A stretch of 34,699 nt of DNA from an uncultured Prevotellaceae bacterium (lineage in GTDB: Bacteria; Bacteroidota; Bacteroidia; Bacteroidales; Bacteroidaceae): positions 1-34,699 of the forward strand of contig OMXX01000038.1 in the NCBI GenBank assembly GCA_900315105.1. Direction: 5' to 3'. The translations under genes and the position numbers were made by a program. The notes below the pieces were generated by a model, which did no database searches, had not been told where the DNA came from, and saw only the letters and a list, made by a program, of their open reading frames with translations. Below, in pieces: positions 1,716 to 33,829 of the stretch (position 1 is the stretch's first letter; every line of letters starts with the position of its first letter).

Positions 1716-1792
1716 ATCTTATATTTTATTTTCTACTTTACACTTTCCTCTTTACTCTCTACACTTTCTACTTTACTCTCCCCCCTTTACTA
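1716..1792 (-). repeat. Heptad array upstream of glmM start
   Basis: Read on the minus strand, the gap between the DUF4827 stop and the glmM ATG is about eleven degenerate 7-base units such as AGTAAAG, TAGAAAG, TGTAGAG and TGTAAAG, decaying to AT-rich units next to the ATG. The first unit overlaps the upstream stop codon. The purine-rich units resemble repeated weak ribosome-binding sequences. Function unknown. Confidence 0.65.
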
Positions 1793-2503
1793 TATCCCTT
1801 TTTCGTATGTTATCTCATAATAACATGCATATACGTATCTGTCTGCCTCAGCCTGTCCCTGATCATGAGGAAGAATAAGACGCACCTTTGCAATTTCATC
1901 GCCATCATTTGCAGGGCGGCCAAGCTTTACGTAAGACAATGGCATAAGCAATCCCATCGGCACAATTCTATGATAAATGGAATTAGTGCCGTAAGTCCTG
2001 GCACCATATCTGTACATCTGTCCATGAAGCGTTGTATTACTATCCTCTACAGTACAAAACATTCCGTTAAATGTACCAGAAGCCCTACGCACTTCAAATT
2101 TCTCATAAAGCTGTTGACCATAATACACATCATCATTCCACAGCTGCAAAGAGTCACCATTAATATTATACTCCCTAAAACGAGAAATCACAGTTGCACT
2201 TTCTCCATCCTTCATTATGTTTCCACAACCACGTCTTACAATCTGCATATATATGCCATTATTAAAACGCACGAACTCATTCTTTGAGACATCGGTAATC
2301 GTGTCTTTCAAGAATTCCTCTTCTGAAATAACATTGATTTTCTTACCCTTTATCTCGCCAAAACTCGGGTTGTTGATAAAACGTGAGAGAGCAGAAAGTT
2401 CATAGTCACGCTGTTCTGCGTATGACGCATAGTCATCGCACGAAGTCATTGCCACAAATACTATGGCAAGCAATACAGTTACGATATAAAGTTTTTTCTT
2501 CAT
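1790..2503 (-). CDS. DUF4827-type lipoprotein
   Basis: A 237-residue exported lipoprotein. The start is the ATG at 2503; the upstream TTG codon is less likely. A charged N-terminus (MKKKLY), a hydrophobic stretch and a lipobox ending in TSC at about residue 22 give a type II signal peptide. The mature part resembles the DUF4827 family of Bacteroidales, which often lies next to glmM; its biochemical function is not known to me. It is first in a likely operon with glmM. The mRNA would start near 2682 and carry a hairpin leader element (2622-2688), then a second hairpin at 2522-2547 (arms AGCCAAATG and CATTTGGCT) just ahead of the start codon. Confidence 0.75.
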   Translation of the reverse strand: MKKKLYIVTVLLAIVFVAMTSCDDYASYAEQRDYELSALSRFINNPSFGEIKGKKINVISEEEFLKDTITDVSKNEFVRFNNGIYMQIVRRGCGNIMKDGESATVISRFREYNINGDSLQLWNDDVYYGQQLYEKFEVRRASGTFNGMFCTVEDSNTTLHGQMYRYGARTYGTNSIYHRIVPMGLLMPLSYVKLGRPANDGDEIAKVRLILPHDQGQAEADRYVYACYYEITYEKGI

Positions 2504-2621
2504 CAAATCTTTATTTTATGTCAAAAGCCAAATGCCAAAAGCCATTTGGCTTCTTGTTTCTTGTTATCAAGTGAAAAGCATTTACTGCCGATGGAATGAT
2601 TTGCGAGTGACAACGTGCATA

Positions 2622-2688
2622 GCACCTCGCACAAAGAAAATAGTGCGTGTCAGCCCCAAGGCTGGCGCACGTCTCCGATTTTCGAGTG
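2622..2688 (-). ncRNA. Structured 5' leader element, copy L1
   Basis: Read on the minus strand, the element begins immediately after the TTTG of the -7 box with CACTCG. It contains three nested stems: CTC+GAAAAT with ATTTTC+GAG, then GTGCG with CGCAC, then CAGCC with GGCTG around a TTGG loop. It aligns along its whole length with the copy at 5094-5164 and the tandem copies at 31504-31689, and the stems differ by compensating changes. It would form the 5' end of the DUF4827-glmM transcript. The first three paired bases may lie just upstream of the transcription start. Confidence 0.65.
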
Positions 2689-2696
2689 CAAAATTA
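2689..2696 (-). promoter_or_regulatory. -7 box for the DUF4827-glmM operon
   Basis: The minus-strand sequence TAATTTTG fits the Bacteroidetes -7 consensus TAnnTTTG. The best upstream TTTG is 24 bases away (2721-2724), longer than the usual 19-21, so the -33 part is weak. The start site would be near 2682. Confidence 0.5.
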
Positions 2697-4138: not shown

Positions 4139-5062
4139 TTAAAACAATTTGTTTGGATACACGCCCTCCTCAACAAGCTTCGCAATACGAGCTACTGTAT
4201 CTGGACGGTCCTCTGAATAAGTTACGCCAAACCACTTACTTGTAGTGTCGAGCACCTTACATGTAGCTGTGCCGTCGTTGATGAGCTTATTCACCATCAG
4301 AGGAATAAAGAACTCAGACTTCAGATTCTTGATGTTTGCCTCATCAGAAAGGAACTCCTTGAAATATTCCTCAGAATACTCGAAGTAGTCAGGAGTAAAG
4401 CCCCACATATTCATACTAACAGGAGCATTCTCATCCACGCGAACCCACTCGCCATCCTCCTTGTTGTCAGCACGATAAGCTACTGTACCATCCTCAAGAC
4501 GTGCAATCTTTGTACGCTCAACGCAAGTTGTAAGGTTGCCCTTCTCATCCTTTGAGCAAACGCCACGACTAACAGTTCCGTTCTCGCTCAATGTGTTGCC
4601 TACACGGAAACCTACCATAGCATACTGTCCCTTAGCACCCTCTGGGAGATCTGCAAGATACTTGCCGATAACTTTGAAAGCATCACGGTTGTAGAAGTCG
4701 TCGCAGTTGATTACGCAGAAAGGCTCCTTGATAACGTCCTTACCCATAAGAACAGCATGATTTGTTCCCCAAGGCTTCTCACGACCTTCTGGTACAGAGA
4801 ATCCCTCTGGCAGAGCGTCAATACCCTGAAAACAGAGTTCGCACTTGATCTTGCCCTCATACTTTGAGAGGATCTGCTTACGGAACTGCTCCTCGAAATC
4901 CTTACGGATAACCCATACTATCTTGCCGAAACCGGCCTCAATTGCGTCATATATACTATAATCCATAATGGTCTCGCCGTTAGGACCCAGACCGTCAAGC
5001 TGCTTCAAGCCGCCATAACGGCTTCCCATACCAGCAGCAAGGAGAAAAAGTGTTGGCTTCAT
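4139..5062 (-). CDS. Sugar-phosphate nucleotidyltransferase family protein
   Basis: A 307-residue protein whose N-terminus has the nucleotidyltransferase signature LAAGMGSRYGGLKQ (residues 8-21), followed by the conserved acidic INCDDFY motif that in this fold binds metal and nucleotide. These enzymes transfer a nucleotidyl group from an NTP to a sugar 1-phosphate. The sugar and nucleotide are not evident. The ATG at 5062 has a short AT-rich leader. The gene heads a probable operon with nrnA and has a strong promoter at 5165-5196 with hairpin leader L2 directly downstream. A role in cell-wall or surface-glycan precursor supply is inferred from the family only. Confidence 0.8.
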   Translation of the reverse strand: MKPTLFLLAAGMGSRYGGLKQLDGLGPNGETIMDYSIYDAIEAGFGKIVWVIRKDFEEQFRKQILSKYEGKIKCELCFQGIDALPEGFSVPEGREKPWGTNHAVLMGKDVIKEPFCVINCDDFYNRDAFKVIGKYLADLPEGAKGQYAMVGFRVGNTLSENGTVSRGVCSKDEKGNLTTCVERTKIARLEDGTVAYRADNKEDGEWVRVDENAPVSMNMWGFTPDYFEYSEEYFKEFLSDEANIKNLKSEFFIPLMVNKLINDGTATCKVLDTTSKWFGVTYSEDRPDTVARIAKLVEEGVYPNKLF

Positions 5063-5093: not shown

Positions 5094-5164
5094 CGACTTC
5101 TTCGCACGAAGTAAATAGTGCATGTCAGCCCTTAAGGCTGGCGCACGTTTCCAATTTACGAATG
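5094..5164 (-). ncRNA. Structured 5' leader element, copy L2
   Basis: This is the second copy of the leader family, on the minus strand, starting right after the TTTG of the -7 box. Stems are TTC+GTAAAT with ATTTAC+GAA, GTGCG with TGCAC (one G-T pair), and CAGCC with GGCTG. Compared with L1, the outer pair C-G became T-A and a mid-stem A-T became T-A, so pairing is kept. It ends about 38 bases before the nucleotidyltransferase ATG, close enough to affect translation. Confidence 0.65.
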
Positions 5165-5196
5165 CAAAATTACTATTTTTTTTTCAAGTACACAAA
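5165..5196 (-). promoter_or_regulatory. Promoter of the nucleotidyltransferase operon
   Basis: On the minus strand, TTTG (5196-5193), 20 bases, then TAATTTTG (5172-5165) matches the Bacteroidetes vegetative promoter in both sequence and spacing. The start site would be near 5158. Confidence 0.7.
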
Positions 5197-6989: not shown

Positions 6990-7215
6990 CATGTGTACAA
7001 GTCCTGAAAGGACGGTATAGTATAGGGTAGTGCGGGAGCGCTACCATGTTTGGAATTGCTGTTTACGAGCCCTGTATGGGCGACATAATTTCATATTTCT
7101 CGGCATGATAGGAAATTATATCGCACCTACGGCGCTCTCTAAAAAAATGGAACTTATGCTACGTGGGTTACACCCACGCCTATGCTATTTCGCCTTTACA
7201 AGGCTATTCTGGAAC
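6990..7215. repeat. REP-like region with several small palindromes
   Basis: The stretch is a chain of short hairpins: GTCCTGAAAGGAC, an AGCCCTGTATGGGCGACATAAT segment, and CGTGGGTTACACCCACG followed by CCTATGCTATTTCGCC and an AAGGCT end. The words resemble REP-type palindromes that IS200-like (RAYT) transposases mobilise in other bacteria. No such gene is in view. It overlaps the 3' end of the broken gene at 7185. Confidence 0.55.
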
Positions 7216-8422: not shown

Positions 8423-8470
8423 TCCGTTTTATATAAAAGGCGGAATGAAAAGTATAAAAAAAACATATAT

Positions 8471-8711
8471 TAACGCCAGTTCGATGAATTTAAGACTGCG
8501 AGGGCTGAAAGCCCGACATCTAATAGGGCAGTCCGTAAGGGCTGTTATTAGGTAGATGCGTGATTAAAGGAGCGCTGTAAGTGCGACACCTGAAGACTTT
8601 AGATGCCGGTCCTACAGACCTCATCCCTATAATATCGGCAAATATAACAGCCCTTACGGACTGCCCTGTTAGGTGTCGCTCCTTCAGAGCTAATCCGTCG
8701 AACTTACATTA
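8471..8711. repeat. Degenerate family A element
   Basis: The ends are TAACGCCAGTTCGATGAATT (8471-8490) and AATCCGTCGAACTTACATTA (8692-8711), worn versions of the family A terminal repeat. Inside, GGGCTGAAAGCCCGACATC and TAATAGGGCAGTCCGTAAGG pair with TTACGGACTGCCCTGTTAGG further right. It is inverted relative to the copy at 33613. It lies between convergent gene ends (lipoprotein and tamL). Confidence 0.7.
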
Positions 8712-8744
8712 CTTTAGGGGTGTTCATCTTCTGTTAATATTCCC

Positions 8745-16208: not shown

Positions 16209-16239
16209 CAAAGATAATGCAAAATTTGCACACAACAAA
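16209..16239 (-). promoter_or_regulatory. Promoter of tamB-tamL
   Basis: On the minus strand TTTG (16239-16236), 19 bases, TATCTTTG (16216-16209). Transcription would start near 16202, 17 bases upstream of the chosen tamB ATG. It is divergent from the rluA-like promoter 20 bases away. Confidence 0.7.
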
Positions 16240-31280: not shown

Positions 31281-31472
31281 TTAATCCCCAAAAAGGAAAA
31301 CAGATGTATCGGATATATCGGAAAAGAATGATTGCGATATTAATGTGTCATTGATGAAAAATAACTTTGGAGTAATCGAAAAAACGTGAAATCACGATAA
31401 TTGGCAAAGGAAATGCCCGGGTAGGAGAAAATGTGAAAAAATCATACGAATTGCTTTTTCGGGTAAAAAAAC

Positions 31473-31503
31473 TTTGCAATATAATGTTTATGTATTAACT
31501 TTG
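31473..31503 (+). promoter_or_regulatory. Promoter directly in front of the triple hairpin array
   Basis: TTTG (31473-31476), 19 bases, TAACTTTG (31496-31503). The first repeat unit begins at the next base, exactly as in the single copies at 2688 and 5164. Confidence 0.7.
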
Positions 31504-31689
31504 CACTCGGAAATCAGAGACGGGCACCACTTTACAAGTGACTATCCCTATTTCCTTCGTGCGAGGAAGCACTCGGAAATCAGAGACGGGCACCACTTTA
31601 CAAGTGACTATCCCTATTTCCTTCGTGCGAGGAAGCACCCGGAAATCAGAGACGGGCACCGCTCTGCGAGCGACAAACCCTATTTCCAT
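31504..31689 (+). ncRNA. Three tandem copies of the structured leader element (L3)
   Basis: Period 66 bases: units start at 31504, 31570 and 31636. Units 1 and 2 are identical; unit 3 differs. Each has GGAAAT pairing with ATTTCC, GGG with CCC, and an apical hairpin CACTT-TAC-AAGTG, which in unit 3 is CGCTC-TGC-GAGCG: both sides changed together. The outer CTC/GAG pair is kept in units 1 and 2 but lost in unit 3. It is homologous to L1 and L2. A second promoter (31735-31765) lies between it and the histidine kinase, so it may be a separate transcript or a long leader. Confidence 0.75.
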
Positions 31690-31734
31690 ATATTTGTCGT
31701 TCGTCACATTATTCGTGCAACTCATCACTCAAAG

Positions 31735-31765
31735 TTGGTCGTTTAAAGGCGATTCCGTAATTTTG
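31735..31765 (+). promoter_or_regulatory. Proximal promoter of the two-component operon
   Basis: TTG (31735-31737), 20 bases, TAATTTTG (31758-31765). It gives a leader of about 130 bases that ends in a short run of CACCCAT-like 7-base units before the ATG. Confidence 0.65.
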
Positions 31766-31900
31766 TAAACTAAAATTAGTTTATAGGTGTTGGATGTAAA
31801 GCAGAAAGGCATAGAGAGAATTCCCATTCGTGATAATGTCGTAATCAGCAAGCCTTGAACAAAAAAACACAACATCACCCATCACCCAATAAAGGCAATA

Positions 31901-32944
31901 ATGGCAAAGAATATCAAACTGCAACTGAAACAACTCTACGTTGCCACATTCTTAGGTGTCGTAGTTCTTCCCTGTATGAGAATATGCACCGATGTCTATC
32001 GTAATGTGAAATACTGGGAAGTGAAGAGCCCTGGGTTTATTGCCTTCGACGTGATAGCAACGATTGTCGTATGCTATGTGTTCCTGTATATTCTTGGATG
32101 GTGGACGACATATACTCAGAAGCATCAGTCAAGTCTGTGGAAAGGGTATGGCGTAACCGTTGCCATTTCCTTTGCTGTTATCGGTTGCGATGCGGCAGTA
32201 AGGGCTTACCTGCAGTATCACGCATTCTACTCAATGAAGGAAATGAGCGTGCCTCTCGTAGTCTCGTCACTCTTTGGCTGTATCTGTTACGGAATTCTGC
32301 GTCATAGCATAGATGAGGAAGAAAGGAGAAGATTGCAGATAGAACAGGCCGAACTGAAGAATGAACAACTTAACTCCGAACTACGTGCGCTTAGAGCTCA
32401 GTATCACCCTCATTTCCTGTTCAATGCGCTTAACACTATATACTTCCAGATAGGACCAGAGAATGAGACTGCACGCCACACCATCGAGCTTCTCAGCGAA
32501 ATTCTGCGTTATCAGGTTAACTGCGGCAGTGAGAAAGTTCCGCTGCAAAAGGAGATGGAATATCTGGAGAAGGACATAAGTTTCCGCAGACTGAGATGCT
32601 CTGACAGACTTAGCCTCAAAGTTGATTTCAGTATGATGGAAGATAATCAGAACGACATGATATATCCGCTTATGTTCACTCCCCTCATTGAGAACGCATT
32701 CAAATATATAGGAGGCAACGAACTGAATATTGACATCAAGATGTTCAAGACAGAAAATCAACTGACTTTTTCCATTATCAACTCGGTTCCGCCCATCGAT
32801 GCTCAGATGCCTCCAAAGCCAAAGACAGGAACCGGGCTGGACAACCTGCGCCGACGATTGTCGCTGTTATATCCAGACCATCACACACTTGAAATAACGA
32901 GAAATAACGACTTTTACTCAGCAAAATTGACATTGACTCTATGA
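31901..32944 (+). CDS. Sensor histidine kinase, LytS/YehU type
   Basis: A 347-residue membrane kinase. Four probable membrane segments occupy residues 10-135, followed by a short coiled coil (EEERRRLQIEQAELKNEQL). The His_kinase (PF06580) motif YHPHFLFNALNT holds the likely phospho-acceptor His171. The ATPase part has LIENAFKY (N box) and GTGLDNLRRRL (G box). Such kinases work with LytTR regulators to sense envelope or metabolite signals; the ligand here is unknown. Its stop overlaps the regulator start (ATGA). Upstream lie a proximal promoter and the triple hairpin array. Confidence 0.87.
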   Translation: MAKNIKLQLKQLYVATFLGVVVLPCMRICTDVYRNVKYWEVKSPGFIAFDVIATIVVCYVFLYILGWWTTYTQKHQSSLWKGYGVTVAISFAVIGCDAAVRAYLQYHAFYSMKEMSVPLVVSSLFGCICYGILRHSIDEEERRRLQIEQAELKNEQLNSELRALRAQYHPHFLFNALNTIYFQIGPENETARHTIELLSEILRYQVNCGSEKVPLQKEMEYLEKDISFRRLRCSDRLSLKVDFSMMEDNQNDMIYPLMFTPLIENAFKYIGGNELNIDIKMFKTENQLTFSIINSVPPIDAQMPPKPKTGTGLDNLRRRLSLLYPDHHTLEITRNNDFYSAKLTLTL

Positions 32945-33615
32945 TAACATGCTTTATAGTTGACGATGAGCCTATTGCCCGTCGAGGACTCAGAGAATAT
33001 ATCACGCGCGAAGGCGACATCAAGATTCTTGCAGAATGTGAGAATATCATTGAGCTTCGTATGCGTCTGCAGGAGATGTCGCCAGATATAATATTCTTAG
33101 ACATCGAGATGCCATACGCATCAGGCATGGATTGGCTTAGCACCGCCAACACATCGTCTCTCGTCATCCTTACCACTGCATACGAGCAGTACGCCCTCAG
33201 AAGCTATGACTTCAACGTAACCGACTATCTTCTCAAGCCGATTCCTTACGAACGTTTCTCAAAGGCCATAGTCAAGGCAAGGAAATTGCTCCAGAAAGAT
33301 TTAGAAACTGAAGGTGTAGATTATATAGTGGTCAAGGTGACTCAGACAAAGAGACATAAGATTCTGTTCCGTGACATCACCTATATTGAGGCACGGCAGA
33401 ACTATTGCAACATACATCATCGCGATGACACCCAACTAATGGTTCGCACCACAATCTATAGTATTCTTGAACAACTGCCTTCAGATATGTTTTGTCAGGT
33501 TCATCGCTCATTCATAGTCAACAAAACGAGAATAACGAGTATGGATTCAAACCGTATCAATATCGGAGGTGTCTCCATCCCAGTCTCACGAACCTACAAA
33601 GAGAAGCTATTGTAA
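32941..33615 (+). CDS. LytTR-family response regulator
   Basis: A 224-residue response regulator. The receiver domain (residues 1-118) has the acidic pair DDE at 8-10, phospho-acceptor Asp54 in IIFLDIEMP, and a conserved Lys in YLLKPIPYERF. A LytTR DNA-binding domain follows (about 128-222), including the segments DITYIEARQNYCNIH and FCQVHRSFIVNKTRI. It acts as the partner of the overlapping histidine kinase. Targets are unknown. Its stop codon TAA is the first three bases of the family A repeat at 33613, so an insertion may have set the present C-terminus, although the length is normal for the family. Confidence 0.88.
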   Translation: MITCFIVDDEPIARRGLREYITREGDIKILAECENIIELRMRLQEMSPDIIFLDIEMPYASGMDWLSTANTSSLVILTTAYEQYALRSYDFNVTDYLLKPIPYERFSKAIVKARKLLQKDLETEGVDYIVVKVTQTKRHKILFRDITYIEARQNYCNIHHRDDTQLMVRTTIYSILEQLPSDMFCQVHRSFIVNKTRITSMDSNRINIGGVSIPVSRTYKEKLL

Positions 33616-33800
33616 CGTGAGTTCGACGAATTTGCCCACTTGTATATTATTGAATATCACGTAGTTGAAAGAACTCTGAAGGAGCGACACCTAAAAGGGC
33701 AGTCCGTTAGGGCATCTACCGAATAACAGCCCTTACGGACTTCCCTATTAGGTGTCGGGCTTTCAGCCCTCGCGGTCTTGAAGTCGTCGAACTCACGTTA
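33613..33800. repeat. Complete family A MITE-like element (188 bp)
   Basis: The perfect terminal inverted repeats TAACGTGAGTTCGACGA (33613-33629) and TCGTCGAACTCACGTTA (33784-33800) enclose internal inverted segments (GGAGCGACACCTAAAAGGGC against CCTATTAGGTGTCGGGC, and GCAGTCCGTTAGGGC against GCCCTTACGGACT). The whole could form a cruciform or RNA hairpin. It is non-coding. TA at both ends would fit a TA-targeting transposon, but this is not proven. Confidence 0.8.
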
Positions 33801-33829
33801 AATTATTTGTCTCAACTAATAATCAACCT

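Follow-up and report, generated by a model that had tools for sequence, protein, structure and literature searches.

The three tandem hairpins examined here are best read, from the comparisons below, as a member of a high-copy family of hairpin repeats embedded in promoters, and not as a dedicated sensor that serves the histidine kinase operon in three doses. The comparison establishes (i) a family with paired arms, (ii) its placement in promoters, (iii) a patchy expansion, (iv) filled and empty sites, and (v) differing unit numbers at one site; the element falls within a known kind, the small dispersed palindromic repeats. Probably, it is a nonautonomous REP/MITE-like hairpin element that lodges behind -7 boxes and is carried as a 5' leader, mostly as a tolerated passenger. 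Under this model, the triplet would be a tandemly amplified copy of a lineage-specific, noncoding, dispersed hairpin element of ~65-80 nt, copies of which would sit in one orientation directly 3' of the TAnnTTTG of pre-existing sigma-ABfr-type promoters; RNA would probably start at S1 or one to two bases from it, and the element would become the host gene's 5' leader. Insertion that duplicates a few target bases (TTTG/TTTGCA) may account for the movement of copies, which an enzyme or a replication-repair route could spread (each a candidate only), and unit number may shift by slippage or unequal exchange. What keeps the arms complementary could be structural selection, template switching in the DNA, or the two together; most copies would have at most mild effects on expression. 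We refer to the whole 34,699-nt stretch of DNA analyzed as the window.

The initial annotation had described three tandem hairpin units of 66 bases, and these were confirmed at 31503-31700 (Table 1). The sequence also bears out what it had said of unit 3, in which both arms of the apical stem are changed, CGCTC/GAGCG replacing CACTT/AAGTG, while the outer stems GGAAAT/ATTTCC and GGG/CCC are retained. A run of three 66-nt copies, the first two the same letter for letter, is no chance repeat, and the element recurs in the genome of a near relative. It directly follows TAACTTTG, in agreement with the annotation, which had put the array on a promoter's +1 side; this is one of 45 occurrences of TANNTTTG in the window, where 27.3 are expected. 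A -33 TTTG and a -7 consensus TAnnTTTG are named for Bacteroides fragilis promoters (PMC7366714), and the Flavobacterium TAnnTTTG box is described as spanning -12 to -5 (PMC9723704); an RNA start is therefore expected at, or within 1-2 bases of, S1. In that case the transcript would, we infer, lack the outer GCAC of unit 1. The count of five units in the window also held: the other two are single units on the minus strand, one of them upstream of a gene (4139-5062, -) with a weak Pfam match to NTP_transferase.

Table 1. Hairpin units, promoter elements, and neighboring genes in the window
Feature	Position	Strand	Remarks
TTTG, possible -33 box	31473..31476	+	19 nt 5' of -7 box, by eye
-7 box TAACTTTG of sigma-ABfr-type promoter	31496..31503	+	Consensus TAnnTTTG (PMC7366714)
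Hairpin unit 1	31503..31568	+	From sequence and family covariation
Unit 1 outer arms	GCAC 31503-31506 / GTGC 31559-31562	+	
Unit 1 S1	GGAAAT 31509-31514 / ATTTCC 31550-31555	+	
Unit 1 S2	GGG 31522-31524 / CCC 31546-31548	+	
Unit 1 S3	CACTT 31528-31532 / AAGTG 31536-31540	+	Three-base loop
Hairpin unit 2	31569..31634	+	Sequence identical to unit 1
Hairpin unit 3	31635..31695 (66-nt repeat to 31700)	+	S3 allele CGCTC/GAGCG; 3' outer GTGC arm lost
Histidine kinase gene with PF06580	31901..32944	+	Downstream of array
LytTR response regulator gene (PF00072 + PF04397)	32941..33615	+	
Single family unit	5102..5167	-	Directly behind TAATTTTG; upstream of gene 4139-5062 (-)
Single family unit	2627..2691	-	Directly behind TAATTTTG; upstream of DUF4827 gene 1790-2506 (-)
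TATCTTTG promoter, empty in window	16209..16216	-	79-nt element copy in G001 (C52:14174, -)

The nearest genome compared, G001, holds 27% of the window's sampled words. A blastn search against it returned 20 matches at E<=10, with E below 0.02 for 15. The covariance-model search of relatives that the initial annotation had proposed was productive: a model built from 19 units (R1) returned 83 matches in G001 at E<=1, of which 74 remained at E<=1e-5. Over 92 sources R1 gave 135 matches, and 130 of these, with the five weakest rows omitted, were examined; they form 94 arrays of one to five units each, not all independent, as sites common to the window and G001 are counted twice. A genus scan at E<=1e-5 found matches in at least seven of 100 genomes, three of which have many (at least 52 in G001, at least 52 in G072, and at least 34 in G002, with at least one in each of four others); up to 52 candidates per genome were scored under stricter filters, and the counts are thus lower bounds. 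At the family level, at least three of 201 sampled genomes had matches, with 25 candidates scored per genome. The string TANNTTTGCACTC occurs 96 times in G001, 178 times in G072, and 74 times in G002, and 9-45 times in each of 18 other genomes. A pattern scan of genome contigs yielded 35 stretches, 30 from Bacteroidales/Prevotellaceae MAGs; the other five have neither the -7 box nor the 3' half and look like chance. Where records with the pattern have names, they are MAGs of Prevotellaceae/Bacteroidales, and several carry RUG isolate names. The array had no blastn match in phage and plasmid collections, viral contigs gave 0 matches to the exact pattern, and in the openly licensed literature we found no earlier description matching the element.

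Two observations concern variants and relatives of the family. Five G002 loci (L129, L130, L133, L134, and L138) have a second core type, built around GCGACCACGAGCC, that resembles the first in its outer arms and in where it sits; it is mixed with the first type in four of the five arrays, and the first S1 letters are common to both core types in L129 and L133, and not in L130 and L134. Separately, the unit and upstream flank at L299, in a genome placed in another genus (G260), are nearly identical to those at L118 of G072 (score 54/60), which may reflect either recent transfer or binning contamination.

Placement in promoters is close to uniform. TAnnTTTG was flagged directly upstream of 88 of the 94 arrays; the six others comprise two at contig ends, one 5'-truncated match behind TAACTTTG, one (acpP) with TTACTTTG, and two (L098 and L141) without a box. 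The distance from the -7 box to the element is constant across arrays. We assessed placement in G072 using 80 stretches (1,594,228 bases) chosen by contig number, a few of them included for known matches; promoter context played no part in the choice. This sample holds 32 units in 25 arrays. TAnnTTTG precedes 24 of the 25, the exception being acpP with TTACTTTG; all 25 have a same-strand ORF start within 450 nt downstream, and in none does the array midpoint fall inside an ORF of at least 100 aa. TTTGCA occurs 1683 times in the same sample, 1056 times within ORFs and 627 times outside, and TAnn accompanies 310 of the latter; for 254 of these there is a downstream ORF as well. Against this background (254/627), the observed placement has a binomial probability of ~6e-9 (calculated by hand), so that a preference for TTTGCA combined with loss from genes explains the placement in part, but not fully. 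At the other end of the arrays, TTGCA follows the last unit within 40 nt in 44 of 93 cases, compared to 11 of 93 for windows placed farther downstream. Whether insertion is targeted to open promoters is a question that the fixed position behind the -7 box raises. In its boldest form, which we regard as unlikely, the family would be a class of element that targets the transcription start: it would enter the DNA opened by sigma-ABfr RNA polymerase behind the -7 box, oriented along transcription, and would immediately be read into RNA as a 5' hairpin with a protective or regulatory role, so that it could spread over essential genes without breaking them.

The genes behind the element are diverse. 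Twenty of the 58 listed downstream ORFs were run against NCBIfam, and 17 matched. The curated cut-off of at least one model was reached or exceeded by atpD, acpP, carB, pyk, cysK, an aldolase gene (cbbA), hisG, leuA, rlmN, xerD, and a MATE transporter gene, while ftsZ (294.4 vs. 295.2), leuS, lon, nqrA, cysE, and rmuC fell short of it, in most cases since the gene runs past the end of the locus. No common pathway links the 17 matched ORFs. The initial annotation had read the triplication as dosage, that is, several binding sites tuned to one ligand or regulator; with unrelated genes downstream, matches in at least seven of 100 genomes, and both presence and unit number varying between relatives, this interpretation did not hold up. 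Similarly, although the array does lie upstream of the histidine kinase/LytTR pair, where it might act as a cruciform or DNA operator, many unrelated genes have a copy of the element in front of them too, and such a role is extremely improbable. Nor does the element resemble a riboswitch or other Rfam family, as it has no single-pathway association and no match at gathering score over the array; the two Rfam matches within 31300-31900 (E 4.4 and 4.8) fall far below that score. Elsewhere in the window, at 7000-7045 (-), Rfam Acido-Lenti-1 matches at 39.6 bits, above its gathering score of 37.

Each array might instead be a stand-alone sRNA gene, in a paralogous family like FopS, with the downstream gene served by its own promoter. 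FopS and GibS of Bacteroides thetaiotaomicron are described as a multicopy RNA family, with FopS driven from sigma-ABfr promoters in Bacteroidota (PMC11697453), and a second -7-like TAATTTTG does lie between the array and the histidine kinase gene (31758-31765, +). However, a simple scan of 31300-31950 at this locus found no terminator-like site, for many copies a start codon lies no more than 100 nt past the end, and, comparing by description, FopS members are stand-alone intergenic, antisense, or 3'UTR sRNAs, whereas the element's copies lie directly before genes (PMC11697453). We consider this explanation very unlikely. Directly after the second TAATTTTG is a palindrome, TAAACTAAAATTAGTTTA (31766-31783, +), a possible operator. 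As for the effect of such leaders on expression, in Prevotella bryantii a -9 kcal/mol hairpin placed ~20 bp before the start codon (-21) is reported not to have lowered protein (PMC3155529), suggesting that leaders of this sort can be tolerated.

The initial annotation took the difference between units 2 and 3 to be a compensating change within the array. The paired arms are real, but both S3 alleles are found at other loci (CACTT at L055; CGCTC at L051, L054, L065, L068, and others), and the change need not, therefore, have arisen here. For the family as a whole, the covariation statistics are clear. The 19-unit alignment has 95.0% of its cells paired, compared to 80.0% when shuffled, and double changes in 13 of 19 pairs. 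With 129 distinct units the values are 94.3% and 76.9%, with double changes in 18 of 19 pairs and 397 double-change cells versus 99, and sliding the partner by one to three columns lowers pairing to 30.5-46.7%; this alignment was fitted to the model and its rows are related, so the figures lean upward. RNAalifold, given the fitted alignment of the 32 G072 units, predicted 17 pairs, nine of them with double changes. S1 varies by locus (50 distinct strings in 130 units), and one S1 pair shows all four Watson-Crick types (G-C 37, A-U 29, U-A 28, and C-G 20), while the CC and GAC at the foot of S3 are invariant in 19 units. Stems in homologous copies do not, overall, vary without compensation, although some one-sided breaks were seen: 55 pairings of shared sites gave 662 pairs that were the same, 80 changed on both sides, 57 broken, and 10 G.U steps, totals that are not pure orthologue counts because they include second units for which the upstream 60 nt is the element itself. 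The acpP copies in L063, L242, and L292 are shared by relatives, with changes that are partly compensated; such shared copies could mean retention for function.

Folding of individual sequences was less distinctive. The minimum-energy RNA fold of 31509-31700 has a z of -2.40, with four of 200 shuffles folding as well, and it does not contain the S1 stems of the units; the S1' of one unit pairs with the S1 of the next, twice. We hypothesize that this junction pairing would let neighboring arms correct each other. Four single units folded as DNA were only a little better than shuffles (z -0.86 to -1.99).

Selection on RNA is expected to favor G.U over A.C. At 14 stem pairs, a count that leaves out the four outer pairs and the weakest pair, we found 32 G.T and 26 A.C cells; all 15 S1-S3 pairs gave 35 and 38, and the outer stem 5 and 34. 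The acceptor stems of 22 control tRNAs had 9 G.T versus 2 A.C, while anticodon stems (2 versus 1) were uninformative. The RNA-specific signature thus appears to be absent, G.T being about equal to A.C, which weakens the inference of an RNA function from covariation alone; with nonindependent rows and small controls, it is no proof of a cause at the DNA level. Of the annotated claim that selection acts on a folded RNA or cruciform, the covariation is borne out in 129 units, but the excess of G.T over A.C is not seen. Template switching at inverted repeats yields multi-base compensated changes that keep stems paired, as in the element (PMC8794818). Covariation alone is for this reason no proof of RNA function, and DNA template switching could also couple the arms; it is, however, a mutational process and not an element family, and only a candidate cause here. 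These data bear most directly on the idea of an RNA leader regulon, in which an RNA-binding protein or global factor would bind the hairpin and co-regulate dozens of genes, with array length setting the strength. The very high covariation (129 units), the invariant bases at the S3 foot (19 units), the constant distance to the -7 box, and the partly compensated changes at shared sites are consistent with such a regulon; the G.T count at 14 pairs, set beside that of the tRNA acceptor stems, the patchy distribution (at least 7/100 genus and 3/201 family-sample genomes), the absence of a common theme downstream, and presence or absence that differs between relatives argue against it, and we judge it rather improbable.

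Comparison of promoters between related genomes identified both filled and empty sites. In the cleanest case, TATCTTTG in the window (16209-16216, -) runs straight into the native leader, while in G001 the same box is followed by 79 extra bases and then by that same leader. The triplet of the window corresponds to two units in G001; both genomes are drafts, and assembly could have altered the number of units where repeats are identical. The promoter was located in the compared part of G072 for 16 of 63 G001/window arrays: eight carry a unit or its remains (window 2627 and L064 being one site), and eight retain the promoter without a unit. Seven of these eight empty calls lie within model-searched stretches, and the one at the atpD site, L163, was made by eye. 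Two empty sites (L051 and L055) have other sequence in the leader, and after TTTG four of the eight read something other than CACTC. An apparent target duplication, TTTG/TTTGCA-like, is present at several sites, with an irregular length of 3 to >10 nt (by eye). A comparison of atpD across other members of the genus (30 loci) gave no polarity of gain or loss, the promoters being unalignable at ~80% gene identity.

The empty sites also bear on whether the arms were copied from the target at insertion (snap-back), in which case S1 would be native sequence. S1 is locus specific and often repeated just after the element; its match to its own 3' flank is 5.39/7, versus 4.98 for permuted flanks (62 arrays; 0 of 10000 permutations as high), and the empty L068 site in G072 has the same AGAAATCA. 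However, the exact locus S1 is missing from seven of the eight empty G072 sites (by eye), the native bases at the window/G001 site differ from GTCAAA, a recurrent family S1, and a piece of the core used as a control likewise exceeded chance in matching its own flank (0.0022). Copying from the target is largely refuted by the empty sites, and we give it hardly any credence.

A PF01797 search of 24 genomes identified no mobilizing enzyme for the family. This Y1 transposase domain was present in 15 of the 24, several of which were element-free in the genus scan, and R1 matched in none of the 12 Y1 loci searched, out of 24 Y1 places; a RAYT/Y1 transposase was rejected as the mobilizer on both counts. 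A transposase that binds terminal repeats would not tolerate locus-to-locus differences in S1. The irregular duplications, the variable S1, the lack of a unit near the Y1 genes searched, the shared copies with partly compensated changes, and the RNA fold of the array without the S1 stems of its units all count against a mobile-element reading. One G001 locus (L256, C3) has a Y1 transposase gene with short palindromes of its own, of the CCCTGAAAGGGC type, on its flanks and, by eye, resembles an ordinary REP-RAYT locus.

Among known systems, REP/REPIN sequences with their RAYTs (PMC3116915, PMC2817692) are described, like the element, as short, high-copy, extragenic palindromes with a patchy distribution between species (PMC3733652); they also form dimers, clusters, and subfamilies with different stems, and the CGTC-tagged REPs likewise seem to be without a dedicated transposase (PMC3733652). 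The element differs in its length (66-80 nt vs. 20-40 bp; PMC3733652), in having no GTAG/CGTC tag at its foot (the consensus unit ends are, by eye, GCACTC and GTGCGA), in being fixed in its orientation and in its place after the -7 box, and in that no unit lies near Y1 transposases (12 loci), the flanks of the Y1 gene in G001 showing a different repeat. With bacterial MITEs, such as that of Porphyromonas gingivalis (PMC4596501), the element shares noncoding sequence, inverted arms, and a high copy number, and it probably has a short target duplication; the P. gingivalis MITE also contains a minisatellite (PMC4596501). MITEs have target duplications of constant length, and those at several sites of the element are irregular. 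Terminal inverted repeats, which typify MITEs, are present in the element as the outer and S1 arms and are variable between loci; in contrast to a MITE, the arms vary by locus yet stay matched, the copies are placed in promoters, and no parental transposon was found (PF01797 searched).

Some Prevotellaceae appear to carry one structured 5' leader on dozens of genes, including ftsZ, atpD, and acpP, by way of repeat spread. If so, their genes would offer a naturally occurring test of what 5' hairpins do to the stability and translation of mRNA, in a phylum described as initiating translation without a Shine-Dalgarno sequence (PMC3155529). Further, covariation, which is usually taken as proof of RNA function, is found here in a repeat that behaves like mobile DNA.

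Other repeats were observed in the same regions. A different dispersed repeat, beginning GCAAATCATTCCATCGGCAGTAAAT, occurs in leaders after promoters at ~2558-2604 (-) of the window and at ~4850-4896 (-) of G001 C52, and the G001 counterpart of the site at window 5167 has this repeat, together with an GGTGATGGGTGTTA-type repeat, in place of the hairpin. A family of large inverted and direct repeats, beginning GCCCTTACGGACTGCCCTGTTAGG, is located at 1-100, 8465-8717, and 33608-33806 of the window.
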